From NCBI RefSeq assembly GCF_964019845.1, contig NZ_OZ026465.1:186001-250000 (forward strand): a DNA stretch of 64,000 nucleotides, given 5' to 3'. The notes under the pieces are model-generated. The model was not told where the DNA came from and did no database searches. It saw nothing but the letters and a program-made list of their open reading frames with translations. Shown here one piece after another: positions 40,328-47,470 of the stretch. The translations under genes were made by a program, and so were the position numbers. The DNA comes from Spiroplasma endosymbiont of Labia minor. Its GTDB lineage: Bacteria; Bacillota_I; Bacilli_A; Mycoplasmatales; Mycoplasmataceae. Positions within the stretch are counted from its first letter, which is position 1. Each line of letters starts with the position of its first letter.

Positions 40328-41113
40328 GTGTTGATTGTTATTAAATTATTGAGACTTATAAGTACATTTTTAATTATTGTTTCTGGTTTAATTTGTTCAT
40401 TTGTTTGTGCATCTTTTTTTATCTTTTCAGAACCATTGAGAATAGAATTTATTTTAATAAATAGTAATTCATCTATTTTAATTATCTTATTGTTTGCATT
40501 TGGTCTTGCATTATGTGTCACAGGTTTTATATCTATATTTATAAGAACAAAAAATAAATTATTTTTGGCATTCATAATTATAAGTATAATGTTATTGTTG
40601 GCAGCAACTGCGGTATCTTTTATCTTGTCACTTTCTACAGGTCTAACTCAGATATTACAAACAATTTTATTAGTTGCAATTGGTGGTCCAACTTTTATAT
40701 TTTCAATTTTATCGGTAACTAATTTGAAAACAGATGCTGTTGCAGTGAATATTGGAGATTCAGTTAATAACCATAAAAATTTATATAATGAAAGTATTTC
40801 AAGTAATACTCCTGATTTAAGACGAAAAATTCGTGAATTGCAAAATAATTTAATTAAACCATCAGGAGAAATTATTGAAGAAATAGAACAAACTGGCCAA
40901 TTTTCGGATATTGATTTTTCTGAATTATTAGAAGAAACAAAAAAAGAATCATCTGATAATAATTCAAAAATACCTGATTCTTTTTATAATGTTGAACAAA
41001 AAAACACAAATGATATTAAAGATTCATCAAAAAATGCTGTAAATAAAAATGATGATTTAGATGATTTCACTTATATTAAAACTAGGAATCATACAGAGGA
41101 TCAAATTCATTAA
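40328..41113 (+). CDS. Four-helix membrane protein, unknown
   Basis: About 261 residues. Four hydrophobic helices fill residues 5-135 and an acidic, low-complexity cytoplasmic tail of about 125 residues follows (LEETKKESSDNNSK and similar). The start is uncertain: GTG 40328 and TTG 40331 lie right against AAAAAGG, and a TTG at 40349 is also in frame. No family recognised. It is followed by another membrane protein gene with a similar charged tail. Confidence 0.65.
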   Translation: MLIVIKLLRLISTFLIIVSGLICSFVCASFFIFSEPLRIEFILINSNSSILIILLFAFGLALCVTGFISIFIRTKNKLFLAFIIISIMLLLAATAVSFILSLSTGLTQILQTILLVAIGGPTFIFSILSVTNLKTDAVAVNIGDSVNNHKNLYNESISSNTPDLRRKIRELQNNLIKPSGEIIEEIEQTGQFSDIDFSELLEETKKESSDNNSKIPDSFYNVEQKNTNDIKDSSKNAVNKNDDLDDFTYIKTRNHTEDQIH

Positions 41114-41152
41114 AAATAAAGAATCTTATTATTGATAAGATTTTTTATTTTT
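41112..41152 (+). terminator. Long terminator hairpin
   Basis: Arms of 18 bases (AAAAATAAAGAATCTTAT and ATAAGATTTTTTATTTTT) pair with a single G-T, around a 5-base loop. It works on both strands by sequence. Confidence 0.88.
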
Positions 41153-41195
41153 AATTGACATGATATTATAATAATGAAAAGGGTGCTCGCTTGTA

Positions 41196-42026
41196 ATGTC
41201 TAAAAAAACTTTAAACCTTAAAAATTTTAAGTCAATAAACAACAATATAATAAGATTAGTGTTTGCAAATAGAATCTTAACTATAATTATGCTTTTTGGA
41301 CTACCGATTATGATTGCAATATGATTGTGTTTTGACAATGGAATACAAGATTTTATAGGTTATTTATTATATTTTATTAATAGCAAAAATAGTTCATTTT
41401 CAATTGATGAATGAAATGAAAAACTTGGTGGAATTGCAGAAACGTTTAGAGTATTTTTACCATTAATTGGATGAGCATTGTCATTTATTATTATTCTTTT
41501 TTTTGCCTTTATTGGTTTATTTGTTTTTTCGACATCAAAAAATAGAATAGCTCAAAGTATATGTTTTATTATTATTATTTTTCTATGGATTACCGCCTTA
41601 ATTACAATTCAATTTACAAAACAATATTTTTATAATAATTATACAAATATTACAGGTGAAATAAGTTATATGGATGCATTTTGATATTCAATGCAAAGTA
41701 GTTACAATGTTGTTTCTAAATATTTTATCGGTATGTGATTTTTTGTTCTTTTTTCTTTTTGTGTTTTCATAATTGAATTAATAGAAGGAATATTAATTAA
41801 AAAAAATAAATTATCATTTACAGCTTTATTTGTTAATGATTATAATGTTAATTCAATGGCCAATAAAATTTTTTCATCCGAAATTGAATTTGGTGAAAAT
41901 TATAAAAAACCTATTAAATCAAAGCATCAAAAAGATGATATCAAAAATAAAAAAAATTCAGATAAAAATGATAAAGTTAAAAAACCAATTATTAATGAAA
42001 ATGATTTTAATGATGATAGTTTTTAG
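41196..42026 (+). CDS. Membrane protein, unknown
   Basis: 276 residues with about four hydrophobic helices (25-45, 95-115, 122-142, 175-200) and a basic, lysine-rich C-terminal tail. Several TGA codons encode Trp. Ribosome site is weak (GGGTG). Ends 15 bases before the metallopeptidase gene, so probably the same transcript. Family not recognised. Confidence 0.65.
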
Positions 42027-42041
42027 AAAGGCATCTATTTT

Positions 42042-42743
42042 ATGGCAATAAAGGCAGAATATATTGTAAAAAAAATAAGTTATCAAGGAAGCGAATATTT
42101 TTATTACTTTAAAATAAATCAAAAAAGAAAATTAATTGGACTTAGAGTTAAAAATGGTGAAATGTATGTATCTGCACCAGAATATGCACAACAATGAGAT
42201 GTTGAAAGATTAATTTATCGCAATATGCCCAAAATTATTGAAATGAGATCGTCATATTCAGAATCAATAAAATTTAACTTTGATGGATTAAATTCTTGAG
42301 TTAAAATTTTTGATAAACCATATAAATTAAAAGTTGTTAATGAAAATATTCATGCAATTATGAAGGATGATGGTTTTTATATGAAATTTTATCCTACAAA
42401 GTTGGAGCAAACAAAAAAAATGTATACATTTCTGGCCAAACAATATTACAATTGATTTAAAAAAGAAACAGATATGTTTGCAGCTAGACTAGGAGTAACA
42501 TATAAAAATTTAACTATTAAATCAATGGATACAAGATGAGGGGTTTGCTACCCGATGCTTGGGAAAATTATTTTAAATCCATCGCTAATTCATTTCTCTG
42601 TTGATGTGATAGATTATGTAATAATTCATGAATTGACACATTTATTATTTCCAAATCATTCAGCAAATTTTAAACACTTCATTGCAAAACATTTACCAAA
42701 TTATCGACAAATGGAACAAACATTAAAAAAACGTGGTTTATAA
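42042..42743 (+). CDS. YgjP-like (DUF45) zinc metallopeptidase
   Basis: 233 residues. The zinc-binding HELTH (HExxH) followed by LLFPNHSANFKHF gives the third ligand, as in the YgjP/WLM family. A conserved TRWGVC segment lies about 35 residues earlier, also typical of this family (RWGSC). AGAAAGG precedes the ATG. Substrate unknown in bacteria. Confidence 0.85.
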
Positions 42744-42854: not shown

Positions 42855-42882
42855 TTGACAAATTTTATATATTGTATATAAT
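42855..42882 (+). promoter_or_regulatory. Perfect consensus sigma-70 promoter
   Basis: TTGACA at 42855-42860 and TATAAT at 42877-42882 with a 16-base spacer. It is the best promoter in the window and precedes the 43-47 kb cluster, with a leader of about 110 bases that holds no recognisable RNA gene. Confidence 0.7.
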
Positions 42883-43001: not shown

Positions 43002-43301
43002 ATGGAAAAATTATTGGATATATTAGGAACAATTAGTTCACCAATAAAAAGAAAAGATTGTAATGCATGAGTAAATAAAATAATTTTGAATTCAACATTA
43101 TTGGTAAATTCACCATCATTAAATTTTAAAAATAATATTTTCGAAGAAATTAAAATTAAGAAATTATTATTTGGTCAAACTAAAAATATTTGGCAATTAG
43201 AAGAAAATGAAGTATCAATTGATTGATTTGATACTCCAATGGAATTCTCAGATACAGAAGAAATGCACGAGGTACTTTATTCAAATCACAATATTTTTTA
43301 A
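43002..43301 (+). CDS. Hypothetical protein, 99 residues
   Basis: A short protein seen only with TGA as Trp at two positions. It starts MEKLLDILGTISSPIKRK and has an acidic C-terminal half. GGAAGG lies 9 bases before the ATG. No family recognised. First gene of a run of uncharacterised proteins behind a consensus promoter; a terminator follows. Confidence 0.6.
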
Positions 43302-43350
43302 ATTATTGATTAACTGTACTAAAATAAGCATTTATGATCTGTAAATCTTT

Positions 43351-43382
43351 ATAGAGTAGAGTTTCTACTCTATTTTTATTTT
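43351..43382 (+). terminator. Terminator
   Basis: A 10-bp stem ATAGAGTAGA/TCTACTCTAT with a 3-base loop and T-rich tail. Confidence 0.85.
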
Positions 43383-43421
43383 CATCATTTTTTTATATAA
43401 TAATTAAAAGGACGTATATTT

Positions 43422-44432
43422 ATGGGTTGAAAGAAAGAGTATAAAAAGCTATTAAAAGAAGAAACTAAAAAACGACTCTATTCGTATGATGCAACAAATA
43501 AAATTAATTATTTAATTGACTGACAAATTGAACCCGGAACTTACGGACAATATAATAGCGTTGAATTGCAAAAACGGATAAGATGATTCATTAATGAACT
43601 TCAAAAAAGCAAAAGTGTGCAAATCATTCCAAGTGATTTGAAAAATGATTTTTCATGATATTTTACTAAAGTTAAAATTAAAGAAGATTTCACAAATTTT
43701 CCCGCAGTTTCAATATTTCAGAATGTTTTTAATATATTGGAACAAAAAATTTCAGATATTGCAGCTTTATTAATTTGTTTTGCTTGTATGAAATTTATGT
43801 ATTTAACAACAATTAAATTTAATGAAATAATTAATCAATTATTTAAAGAAGAAGAAATAAATAATTCATCATTAGTTAAGCGCGTTTTTGAAACCATGAG
43901 TAGAACTTCTTTGGAAGCATATGAAGATATTATTTATGAAGGTGAACTTATTTCAAAATCAAGGCAGCTGAACCCAAATAAAAACCATTTAACAGTATCA
44001 GAAATAGCTGAAATGGGACAAGATTTTTCTTATCATTGATCTAGAATGTTAGAACAAGTTTGTGAATTAACAGTCGAATCACTTAATTATCAAAAAAATT
44101 ATCAACATACTCATACAGATGAATTTACAGAAACAATATCAAAAGATTTTAACAATTTTAAAAATGATTATTTTGGTTTTAATTCTGAAGAAAATAATTT
44201 TGAAGATTTTTTCGAACAAACAAAAACTATGGTTCTTTCATCCGAGTTAGACAGTGCACTAAAATTTTTCAATTTGAAAAGAACGGATTCTTATGTTATA
44301 TTCAAAAAAGCTTATAGATTAATGGCAAAAACTTATCACCCCGATGTAAATTCTGATGCTGATGCAAATCAAATCATGCGAAAAGCAAATATTTATAAAT
44401 ATGTACTAGAAGACCATTTTAAAAATGTATAA
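43422..44432 (+). CDS. Uncharacterised protein with C-terminal J-domain
   Basis: 336 residues. The C-terminal 65 residues resemble a DnaJ J-domain: a helix (SALKFFNLKRTDSYVIFKKAYRLMAKTYHPD) holding the HPD tripeptide near residue 304, then ANQIMRKANIYKYVL. The first 260 residues are helical and of unknown family, with one hydrophobic stretch (IAALLICFACMKFMYL). The domain order is the reverse of classical DnaJ and there are no Gly/Phe or zinc domains. It could recruit DnaK to a specific client, maybe the neighbouring proteins (inference). AAAGG lies upstream. Confidence 0.7.
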
Positions 44433-44482
44433 TTAAATGTGTATGAAATTGCTATTTATTAATTGGTTTAGGAGTAATTAAG

Positions 44483-44764
44483 ATGAAAGTTAAATTAAAT
44501 AAACTACAATCTGCGGATGCCAAAATACTTTGAGATTACAATTCAATTAACAATGATTCAACTTACGAAAAAACTATTTTTAAACCATGTGCAATTTGCG
44601 GGCGAGAAATGAAAAGATTTGATTTCAGAACGGAAAACAAAGAAACTGGTTGAGATATTTGAGCAGATAATTTAAAAGAATTGACAGTAACTGAAAGTCA
44701 TGCTGATTATTATGAATTAAGGCATACTTATCATATGAATTATCCTTCAAATAAACAAACTTAA
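44483..44764 (+). CDS. Hypothetical small protein with CxxC
   Basis: 93 residues, readable with TGA as Trp. A KPCAICGREM motif sits in the middle. The C-terminal part is rich in Tyr and His (HADYYELRHTYHMNYP). TTAGGAG precedes the ATG. No second CxxC is present, so metal binding would need the histidines. Family unknown. Confidence 0.6.
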
Positions 44765-44843
44765 ATAAAATATATAATATTTGCGGCAGATTATATTTTG
44801 ATAATTTGCTTAATTGCATAGAAATATGTAAAAGGAGTAACTT

Positions 44844-45599
44844 ATGGAAAATAAAAGTTTTGAGCTAATAAATGAATTAGCCAAGTTAGGTAGAGAAATC
44901 ATTCGCTCTTATGATGTTAATTTTTTAGAGCGTCAAAATACAGGTGTTGCAAAACATAATTTTATGGTTGAACTGCAAAAATTTATATCTATCTATCATA
45001 ATGATCCAGAGTCACTGCTAATAGAAATGAAAGAACATTTTCATGAAATGTATACAGATATTGCAAAATTAATTCAAAATGTGGAAGCTTTTGTTGCATT
45101 GTCTGGAAAAGAACTTGCAAAAGAAGATATTCCAACTATTTTTGCAATAAGCAAAAAAAATAGTTCTATATTGGATTGTTTGTCAAGAGATTTTTGAATA
45201 GAGACTGGCAGCCATTTATTAAATAGACCAGAAAATGAACGTAAAGAAATTAAAACTTATTTAAAAAATAGAGCTGAAAATACTTATTTTGGAATAGATG
45301 AAAAAACCTTGAATGAGTTCAAAAAAAATGGTTTAAATTTTAATTTAATTGAAGACTTATTCATTGAAAATATTATGAATGTTAATTTATATAAACAAAT
45401 GATTAAATTTGATTTTAAATTTGAATCAGAAGATCAACTAGATATTAATTCACCAAAAGAAGTTTATGGTTTTATGGATAACATTTTATTGGGTTTGTCA
45501 GTTGGTTTCGCGTATATAGTTTATTTGGACGGTCTACTTTCAAAATATACAGGTAATTATGTAACAAATTATATAGAGGTAAATTTAGATGGTAAGTAA
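44844..45599 (+). CDS. Hypothetical helical protein
   Basis: 251 residues, mostly helical, with a hydrophobic segment near the C-terminus (NILLGLSVGFAYIVYLDGLL). Two TGA codons or fewer encode Trp. AAAAGGAG precedes the ATG. The end overlaps the next gene start by 11 bases, so translation is coupled. No family recognised. Confidence 0.65.
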
Positions 45600-46485
45600 T
45601 ATTTTAAAGAGAACTATTGAAGAATATAGTAAAAATTGTCTATTGGCAATTGAAGATGAAATTTATTTGGTAAGATGAAATTCAAATTTAAAAAATAATT
45701 GAATCGCAAAAGAAATTACTAGAGTAAATTCAAATAAATTTGATGTTTATGATTGAGCACACTATTTATATAATTATTTAGATAATAAAAGACATGAGTG
45801 AAATAACAAAATTTTGGAAACCTTTTCAGATGAACCTGAAATTTTAGAAGAATATGAAGAATCAGATATTGTCTATATGCGATTTATGTCACTTGTCAGC
45901 ACTAGTCATGAATTTTTATCAATGTTAGTATTATTAAAAACAAATGAAAATGAAAGAAATAAGAAAAATTTATCTTTAAATAATTTATTATTAACAGATA
46001 CCGAGATTTGAGAGGCTTCAAAAATTCTACAAAAAACAATTATTAAAACTCACGCCGATATGACAGCTGATTTTAATTCATTAAATATTCCAGAAGAGTA
46101 CGCTCATTTTGCGATTAATATTCAAAAAAAATTTTTGAAAGATAAAGATTCAACCTTAGCACCTCAAGAATTTTATAAAAAAGTAAGTGATTTTATGGAA
46201 GTGGTTCAAGACACGCTTGAAGATGCATTTGATCCCGAACAAGAAAGTAGTTCAAATTCTGTAGATGAACAAATTGGTGATTTCTTCCAATTTTTAATGA
46301 CAATGGATACTTTCAATTTCTATTCACTTTTATTGTATGAAATTTATTTTAAGACATATTTTTCAAATAGAGAAGATATGATGGTTCCGCAAACAATTTC
46401 AGAAATAAGAGATGAACAATTAAATGAAGCACATTTAATTTCGCTTGGTGGAGTTGACAAAAATTATTCACATTTAAAAAATTAA
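45589..46485 (+). CDS. Hypothetical helical protein, paralogue of the next
   Basis: 298 residues, mostly helical and acidic; several TGA codons encode Trp. It starts MVSNILKRTIEEYSKN, overlapping the end of the preceding gene. Residues 150-290 resemble the broken gene that follows: LAPQEFYKKVSDFMEVV here against LNPVEFHKKSTNFSKLV there, and a similar FNFYSLLLYEIYFKTYF segment. Family unknown. Confidence 0.65.
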
Positions 46486-46562
46486 ACTGCTATTTTTATC
46501 TTACTCATTTGAAGTGTGTTAGTATTAAAAAGGTACGAGTGCATTATTAAATAGGAATATAT

Positions 46563-47419
46563 ATGGATGTACAAAACTTTTTAAATAAACTCTCATTTCA
46601 AACATATTTTGATTGGCATAAAAAATTGCTAACAGAAAATGTAACCTCATTTGTTAAAAATGATAATTTAAATTTGTCTAATGAGTTAGAAGAATATAGA
46701 CTATTAGACAGTTTTAAAGTTAATATAAATAAATTAGAAGAACTTTTGAAAAATAGTTTTCTTTATGATGTTTCAAAATTTTTAAAGAGAACTCATACAA
46801 AAAGTACAGGAACTATAGCTTTTAAAAAATACTGTAAATTTGAAGAATTCGGTTTACATATTTCAGAACCAATTTATATATTTTCTAGTTTTAGAAAATA
46901 TTTGTCACCTTTTTTTACTGAAATTAAAAAAGATGACAATTCGATAGTTTTTGAGCAAAACACGCAAAATTTCGACTTACAAAAAATAACAACATATGCG
47001 CAAGCAACTGTAATTAAGAAAATAAAAGAAATAAATTGCAGTATTTCATATATCTATGCTTCAAAAAAAAATTAAAGAATTATTCAACAACATTATTGAT
47101 AATTCTTTAACAGATAGTGATAATAAATTAAATCCTGTTGAATTTCATAAGAAATCAACAAATTTTAGTAAATTAGTGAGTCTTACAACTGAAATTGTTA
47201 AACATGCAGCCTCTAAAAAATTCTCACGTAAATTATGTATTAAATAAATTGTATAAAGCAGATATACAGCTTCATTATTTGTTTTTGAATTATGAGCAAT
47301 TCATTTCTTCTTTTTATGGTAGCGATTTTGTTCAAACACAATTTCAAAATACCTTTATGAATTATCATAAAAAGAGAATAGAAGTTACAAAATATAATTA
47401 TAAAAAATTTGAAAATTAG
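46563..47419 (+). pseudogene. Frameshifted paralogue of the 45589 gene
   Basis: Three overlapping reading frames (46563-47075, 47056-47247, 47195-47419) together resemble one protein of about 285 residues like the 298-residue protein upstream. The switches fall at A-runs: nine A at 47063-47071 and six A at 47215-47220. Each switch is one extra base relative to a single frame. Either the gene is decayed, or the tracts allow slippage by polymerase or ribosome, or the assembly has errors. The first part alone is 170 residues, starting at an ATG after a weak AGGAA. Confidence 0.6.
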
Positions 47420-47430
47420 ATATATTTGTT

Positions 47431-47470
47431 TTAAAGCCTCAACATTATTTGAGGCTTTAAAATTTTTAGT
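47431..47470 (+). terminator. Terminator closing the hypothetical cluster
   Basis: A 10-bp stem AAAGCCTCAA/TTGAGGCTTT with a 6-base loop and A/T tail. Confidence 0.85.

Follow-up and report, generated by a model that had tools for sequence, protein, structure and literature searches.

How many of the six consecutive genes at positions 43002 to 47419 of a 64,000-nucleotide stretch from the Spiroplasma endosymbiont of Labia minor form a working unit, and what would such a unit do? The stretch, called the window below, comprises bases 186001-250000 of the 984-kb genome and was translated under table 4. An earlier note on it had listed genes of 99, 336, 93, 251, 298 and about 285 residues (here c1, J2, c3, c4, c5 and c6) and had proposed from their overlaps and close spacing that they function jointly, with DnaK recruited through a J-domain. 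Judged by sequence, the conserved core is J2, c4 and c5, three of the six genes, and we put at roughly one in two the probability that J2, as a specialised class C co-chaperone, brings DnaK to c5 and c4.

J2 and its conserved neighbours

The C-terminal J-domain announced by the earlier note lies in the 336-residue J2, where the Pfam DnaJ model scores 23.8 bits (E=4.9e-5), below the Pfam cut-off of 27.8, and where a profile of 28 J2 orthologues matches solved DnaJ J-domains at E=2.4e-9. The HPD motif, which J-domains need for Hsp70 stimulation according to PMC8215388, is intact in all 28 orthologues. DnaJ is the only Pfam match of J2 at E < 0.03, the long DnaJ models cover only residues ~282-334, and neither Pfam nor NCBIfam models detect the zinc finger or beta-sandwich domains of DnaJ and CbpA. 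Assignment to class A DnaJ was rejected on account of the missing zinc finger and C-terminal domains and of the separate 389-residue DnaJ in the genome, as was identity with TopJ, since the TopJ models score 25.2 against a cut-off of 512.25 bits (TIGR03835) and 24.2 against 300 bits (NF037946). J2 is predicted to be a class C J-domain protein, an already known kind, whose members are related to DnaJ through the J-domain alone and can bear domains for protein interaction (PMC8215388). It resembles the class C proteins DjlA, DjlB, DjlC and HscB of the same account (PMC8215388) in having only the J-domain in common with DnaJ and an intact HPD motif, and differs from them in an N-terminal domain with no library match and in its fixed position beside a YgjP-type metallopeptidase gene and, mostly, c5. 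None of c1, c3, c4, c5 and c6 has a usable match in Pfam, NCBIfam or PADLOC.

Orthologues were sought with a profile of the J2 N-terminal domain (10 sequences) among 320 genomes of the order and were found in 28, all within the family of 60 genomes, with one match each at the same locus, in the genera numbered here g1, g4, g5, g8 (which we take to include the Apis-clade spiroplasmas), g9 and g10. J2 lies directly behind the YgjP-type gene in 28/28 genomes, and a recognised c5 lies downstream in 25 of them; two of the remaining three have an unrecognised open reading frame (ORF) of 335 or 270 residues at the c5 place, and in one the contig ends. The profile still recovers the window J2 when built without its row. 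This search undercounts the N-terminal domain: when the full J2 profile was run on the fetched loci, parts of this domain were matched in paralogues as well. With J2 as a single query, 55 of the 60 family genomes match at E 1e-3, many of the weaker matches covering little beyond the J-domain, and a search of genome contigs returned at least 47 loci, whose matches lay in the J-domain or in the segment preceding it; none was accepted as an orthologue. J2 is under purifying selection (w = 0.065-0.145 in four close pairs, compared with 0.012-0.054 in two pairs for typA), and its C-terminal ends vary among orthologues.

No usable match to c5 was found in Pfam, NCBIfam or PADLOC, none of 25 c5 members matched Pfam at E 0.01, and the best match of the c5 profile among solved structures (E 0.55) was taken as chance. 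It is present in 43 of the 60 family genomes at E 5.2e-29 or better, five matches outside those 60 (E 7.5e-4 to 7e-3) being taken as chance; the 17 genomes without c5 are the 14 of g7, G004 and G050, which carry the unrecognised ORF at the c5 place, and G005, whose contig ends after c4. A profile from which the window c5 was left out still recovers it (E 5.5e-6 at Z=500), the gene is under purifying selection (w = 0.018-0.175, four pairs), and the protein is acidic (isoelectric point 4.7) with no strongly hydrophobic stretch. An intact c4 gene is present in 16 of the 60 genomes; one more has it split and another keeps a remnant, in every case directly 3' of J2. A single match elsewhere (E 0.004) was taken as chance and the genome-contig search found no relative. 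Pfam, NCBIfam and PADLOC gave no usable match to c4, although among 14 members of its family four Pfam models were each matched by one member (E 0.0045-0.01), and the best match to a solved structure (E 0.028) was again attributed to chance. The window c4 is likewise found when its own row is excluded from the profile (E 5.9e-8 at Z=500), the gene is under purifying selection (w = 0.123-0.244, three pairs), and its C-terminal ends vary.

For J2, c4 and c5, the homologues therefore share a neighbourhood in relatives, with J2 in the same place in 28/28 genomes and c4 only directly downstream of it, and the scattered occurrence that the earlier note had named as refuting its proposal was not seen; c1, c3 and c6, in contrast, belong to no conserved unit. 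Within this core, c4 and c5 overlap by 11 nucleotides. Taken together, these data point to a conserved, presumably specialised co-chaperone locus whose candidate partner families, c5 and c4, have no usable library match.

Gene order, transcription and the outlying genes

The gene order in the window is lepA, m1, m2, a YgjP-like metallopeptidase gene, c1, J2, c3, c4, c5, a broken c6 and typA, continuing to enolase. The features from the metallopeptidase gene to typA are as follows.

42042-42743, + strand: YgjP-like metallopeptidase gene (Pfam PF01863, E=3.1e-44), upstream neighbour of J2 in 28/28 genomes
42855-42882, + strand: exact sigma-70-type promoter-like site (12/12 positions), most likely for c1
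43002-43301, + strand: c1, 99-residue orphan, no library match, probably its own transcription unit
43351-43373, + strand: intrinsic-terminator-like hairpin in the c1/J2 gap, 10 pairs, then TTTTTATTTT
43396-43401, + strand: TATAAT 5' of J2, perhaps the -10 element of its promoter, no good -35 seen
43422-44432, + strand: J2, 336 residues, conserved N-terminal domain ~1-245, predicted C-terminal J-domain ~284-331, HPD at 306-308
44483-44764, + strand: c3, 93-residue orphan with a lone CxxC, in the window genome only among 60
44844-45599, + strand: c4, 251 residues, intact in 16/60 genomes, at this locus only
45589-46485, + strand: c5, 298 residues, acidic, ending in -LKN, present in 43/60 family genomes
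46563-47419, + strand: c6, broken frame in three pieces, possibly a decayed tandem copy of c5
47428-47463, + strand: intrinsic-terminator-like hairpin after c6 and before typA, 15 pairs

The first five genes stand as table 4 ORFs of the listed sizes, the 99-residue ATG start of c1 falling within a listed 120-residue ORF, and the lone CxxC of the earlier note is where it should be, in the 93-residue c3. The membrane proteins m1 and m2 occupy window positions 40328-42026 between lepA and the YgjP-like gene; a Pfam scan of m2 gave no match.

A consensus promoter had been placed ahead of the whole cluster. The site, TTGACA-16-TATAAT, does exist and is the sole exact match in the 64 kb, where 0.23 are expected and 21 of 100 shuffles contain at least one. 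It cannot be assigned to all six genes, because the hairpin at 43351-43373, one of three intrinsic-terminator-like sites found against 0.7 expected, separates c1 from J2; with the promoter before c1 and the hairpin behind it, the site probably serves c1 alone. J2 itself is preceded by a ribosome-binding-like stretch and by a TATAAT starting 26 bases 5' of its ATG. Measured between match ends, YgjP and J2 are 19-78 nucleotides apart in 27 genomes, which suggests that they form one operon there, and 681 nucleotides apart in the window, where c1 intervenes.

Three of the genes are, by these comparisons, local additions outside the conserved module. c1 matches nothing in Pfam, NCBIfam or PADLOC, and among the 60 genomes it is found in the window genome, with a weak match in G040 (E 4.3e-4) whose surroundings do not explain it. 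c3 has no relative among the 60 genomes outside the window genome, and its best library match (NF009148, E 0.0019) scores 18 bits against a cut-off of 243 and is not usable. c6 was rejected as an intact frame, since it is read in three frames (46563-47075, 47056-47247 and 47195-47419), and must therefore be a pseudogene or the product of assembly errors; it has no convincing relatives among the 60 genomes, its first piece giving weak matches in four g7 genomes (E 0.0015-0.006). The suggestion that c5 and c6 are paralogues is weakly supported. When the pieces were aligned to c5, the shuffles matching the score numbered 1 in 1000 for the middle piece and 135 and 87 in 1000 for the outer pieces, and the global score of c6 read through with X at the joins, which were chosen after the piecewise test, was again matched by 1 of 1000 (z ~3.7, against z <=1.4 in four controls); no c5 profile finds c6. 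With c1 separate, c3 an orphan, c6 broken and c5 retained in relatives that lack J2 (see below), the idea of six genes of joint function fails.

The interval between c5 and typA holds other genes in 7 of 27 relative loci (L034, L035, L036, L041, L042, L044 and L048) and extends over tens of kilobases in G034 and G042, suggesting that varied genes occupy it in relatives, as c6 does in the window. Ten of the 27 relative loci, but not the window, have behind c5 a member of a family of 150-residue proteins with an invariant PFCC motif (alignment A4, e.g. L031:7719-8174). G042 also carries a decayed duplicate of the region in two stretches near 116-120 kb, where a second lepA is interrupted by three in-frame TAA stops and a fragment of YgjP lies nearby.

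Distribution across the family and the c5 tail

To place the presence and absence of J2, we used a tree of lepA and typA (39 sequences each), rooted by our choice on three g7 genomes. The 13 sampled genomes of g2, g3, g6, g11 and g12, all without a J2 orthologue, form one clade (support 1.000) that adjoins the J2-bearing g9 (0.964), in a tree whose deep nodes are weak, down to 0.083. We take g6, g11 and g12 to include Mesoplasma, Entomoplasma and Williamsoniiplasma. In this clade c5 lies directly behind lepA (sampled g3, g6, g11 and g12) or behind lepA-YgjP (g2). Read most simply, J2 would have occupied the locus before the clade arose and been lost a single time, c5 being retained. In g7, J2 is not at this place and c5 was undetected in 14/14 genomes. 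A typA match at E 1e-150 was obtained in 49 of the 60 genomes and not in 11 of the 14 g7 genomes, weaker matches not having been sought; lepA is in all 60.

The 25 c5 proteins of J2-bearing genomes aligned here (A3) have a mean column identity of 48%, and all end in -KN (24 in -LKN, one in -KKN), mostly as F/Y-x-x-L-K-N. We compared them with c5 from loci lacking J2 in a wider alignment (A5), which takes in 12 of 14 fetched proteins from such loci, L139 (close to L138) and L145 being left out. The stretch past the last anchor measures 22-23 residues in 9/9 J2-bearing and 12-20 in 12/12 J2-lacking sequences, and an aromatic residue is found among the last nine in 9/9 against 4/12. Because the J2-lacking c5 form one clade, this difference counts as one event, and we regard it as a lead, not proof, that the tail may serve J2 or DnaK. 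The unrecognised ORF at the c5 place in G004 ends in -SYCSFLSN. In G057 (L179, L180, L144 and L141) there are six c5-family matches, four of them on one contig, and seven inspected members end in asparagine.

Proposed mechanism and competing explanations

The window genome encodes a full-length DnaK (611 residues) and the 389-residue DnaJ, the possibility that either is truncated having been discarded on reading the locus. Paralogues with a C-terminal J-domain occur across the family, some with hydrophobic N-termini resembling membrane anchors; the strongest (E 2.5e-34), a 318-residue protein of G017 (g7), matches the J2 profile in the J-domain and across positions 5-211, and a 286-residue paralogue of G039 matches the full J2 profile (E 1.3e-21). 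A second Hsp70 of 494 residues is encoded 2-3 nucleotides behind such paralogues in G039 (two paralogues; L116:4002-7208) and G035 (one; L117:4951-7971). Its match to the DnaK model TIGR02350 stops at position 507 or 513 of 596, so that, given the established position of the lid in DnaK, the protein ends before the lid. This second Hsp70 was dismissed as the general partner of J2, since it is matched in 2 of the 60 genomes, one Hsp70 match being found in 26 of the 28 J2 genomes. Its linkage to the paralogues supports the view that J2-type proteins work with Hsp70, with nothing direct on J2 itself, and recalls the DjlB and DjlC genes lying close to that of HscC, as told in PMC8215388. Recruitment of DnaK by J2 in the window organism, as first proposed, would fit both the invariant HPD motif and these paralogue pairs.

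Dedicated tasks for J-domain proteins have precedents. TopJ, a mollicute J-domain protein by the names of its NCBIfam models and the best NCBIfam match of J2 (E 5.1e-6), is located at the bowl complex, and mutants of its orthologue glide less (PMC4923136); its model has the J-domain near the start, in contrast with J2, where it is at the end. In cyanobacteria, the DnaK1-DnaJ3 chaperone system interacts with type IV pilus motors that are active (PMC9239167), which offers an analogy in which one cellular machine has an Hsp70 and a J-protein devoted to it. The accessible text of PMC5893858 does not describe the cluster, and a literature search on Spiroplasma J-domain proteins with DnaK returned nothing relevant and one on YgjP metallopeptidases nothing at all, which we do not take as absence from print.

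In the mechanism that we favour, at about 0.5, the N-terminal domain of J2 would hold a specific partner, the likeliest candidate being c5 next to it, plus c4 where present; the C-terminal J-domain would deliver the DnaK of the cell to that partner, which DnaK would then remodel or assemble, and the c5 tail may be the part handed over. Several observations weigh against it. In the 13-genome clade c5 sits beside lepA or lepA-YgjP with no J2, so that c5 does not need J2, and 12 of the 28 J2 genomes have c4 in broken form or as a remnant, or lack it. The extra Hsp70 of two genomes adjoins paralogues, not J2. The contrast in the c5 tail comes from one tree branch and an alignment of divergent sequences, and it is blurred by the four J2-lacking c5 with an aromatic near the end and by the J2-bearing G050, whose ORF at the c5 place ends in -THLLNN with no aromatic. 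J2, c4 and c5 have no detectable sequence relation (profile comparisons among them and the 150-residue family gave probabilities of ~1% or less), so there is no argument from common origin, although none is expected of partners. Single-sequence structure models of J2 and c5 were unusable, with a predicted local distance difference test (pLDDT) score of 39; the label 'helical' given to these proteins was a first impression, and such models are too poor to count towards it. Finally, gene order may persist without joint function.

This last point is the core of a possible, somewhat less probable alternative: rearrangements of the lepA-YgjP-typA region would be rare, J2 would assist DnaK with clients unrelated to these genes, and c5 would have a job of its own, perhaps tied to the translation GTPases LepA and TypA. 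The retention of c5 behind lepA or lepA-YgjP where J2 is missing agrees with it, as do the presence of lepA and YgjP in 60/60 genomes and the g7 genomes, which lack both a detected c5 and, in 11 of 14, the strong typA match; yet other genes split c5 from typA in the 7 of 27 loci named above, and YgjP, J2 and c5 remain near one another there, whether c4 is present or not.

We consider it unlikely that the module serves as a chaperone of cell architecture, be it helical shape, motility or membrane organisation, in the manner of TopJ and the terminal organelle of M. pneumoniae. The clade without J2 presumably takes in Entomoplasma, Mesoplasma and Williamsoniiplasma, which are not helical, several J2 paralogues, including the 318-residue G017 protein, have anchor-like hydrophobic N-termini, and m1 and/or m2 are recognised upstream in 24 of 27 relative loci. 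However, no J2 occupies this place in g7, to which we assume that the helical S. chrysopicola belongs, and the TopJ models match through the J-domain only, at 25.2 bits against a cut-off of 512. A bolder combination seems to us quite improbable: J2, c4 and c5 as a dedicated Spiroplasma Hsp70 machine that would assemble an undescribed acidic structural protein, c5, by its conserved -LKN tail, with the loss of J2 and the shortening of the tail falling on a single branch, as the entomoplasma lineage abandoned the spiroplasma way of life, cell helicity and swimming. A mobile, phage or defence island could hold for c1 and c3, and the orphan status of c1, c3 and c6 and the other genes in the c5-typA interval of relatives would suit it, but for J2, c4 and c5 it is very improbable, given a J2 at one locus in 28 genomes, a G+C content of 0.22-0.28 in the cluster genes, near the 0.21-0.26 of m1, m2 and YgjP, and the failure of PADLOC 2.0.0 to match any family, up to E 1, to the six proteins, c6 being represented by its first piece, on which a defence system was rejected.

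If J2 does serve c5, the proposed co-chaperone locus would offer a small and testable case of a J-protein, its probable client and DnaK, with the relatives that have c5 and lack J2 as a natural control. Outside g7, c5 is found in all but three of the sampled genomes of the family, and this wide occurrence, together with the lack of a usable library match, makes it a promising choice for study among the uncharacterised core genes of small genomes.

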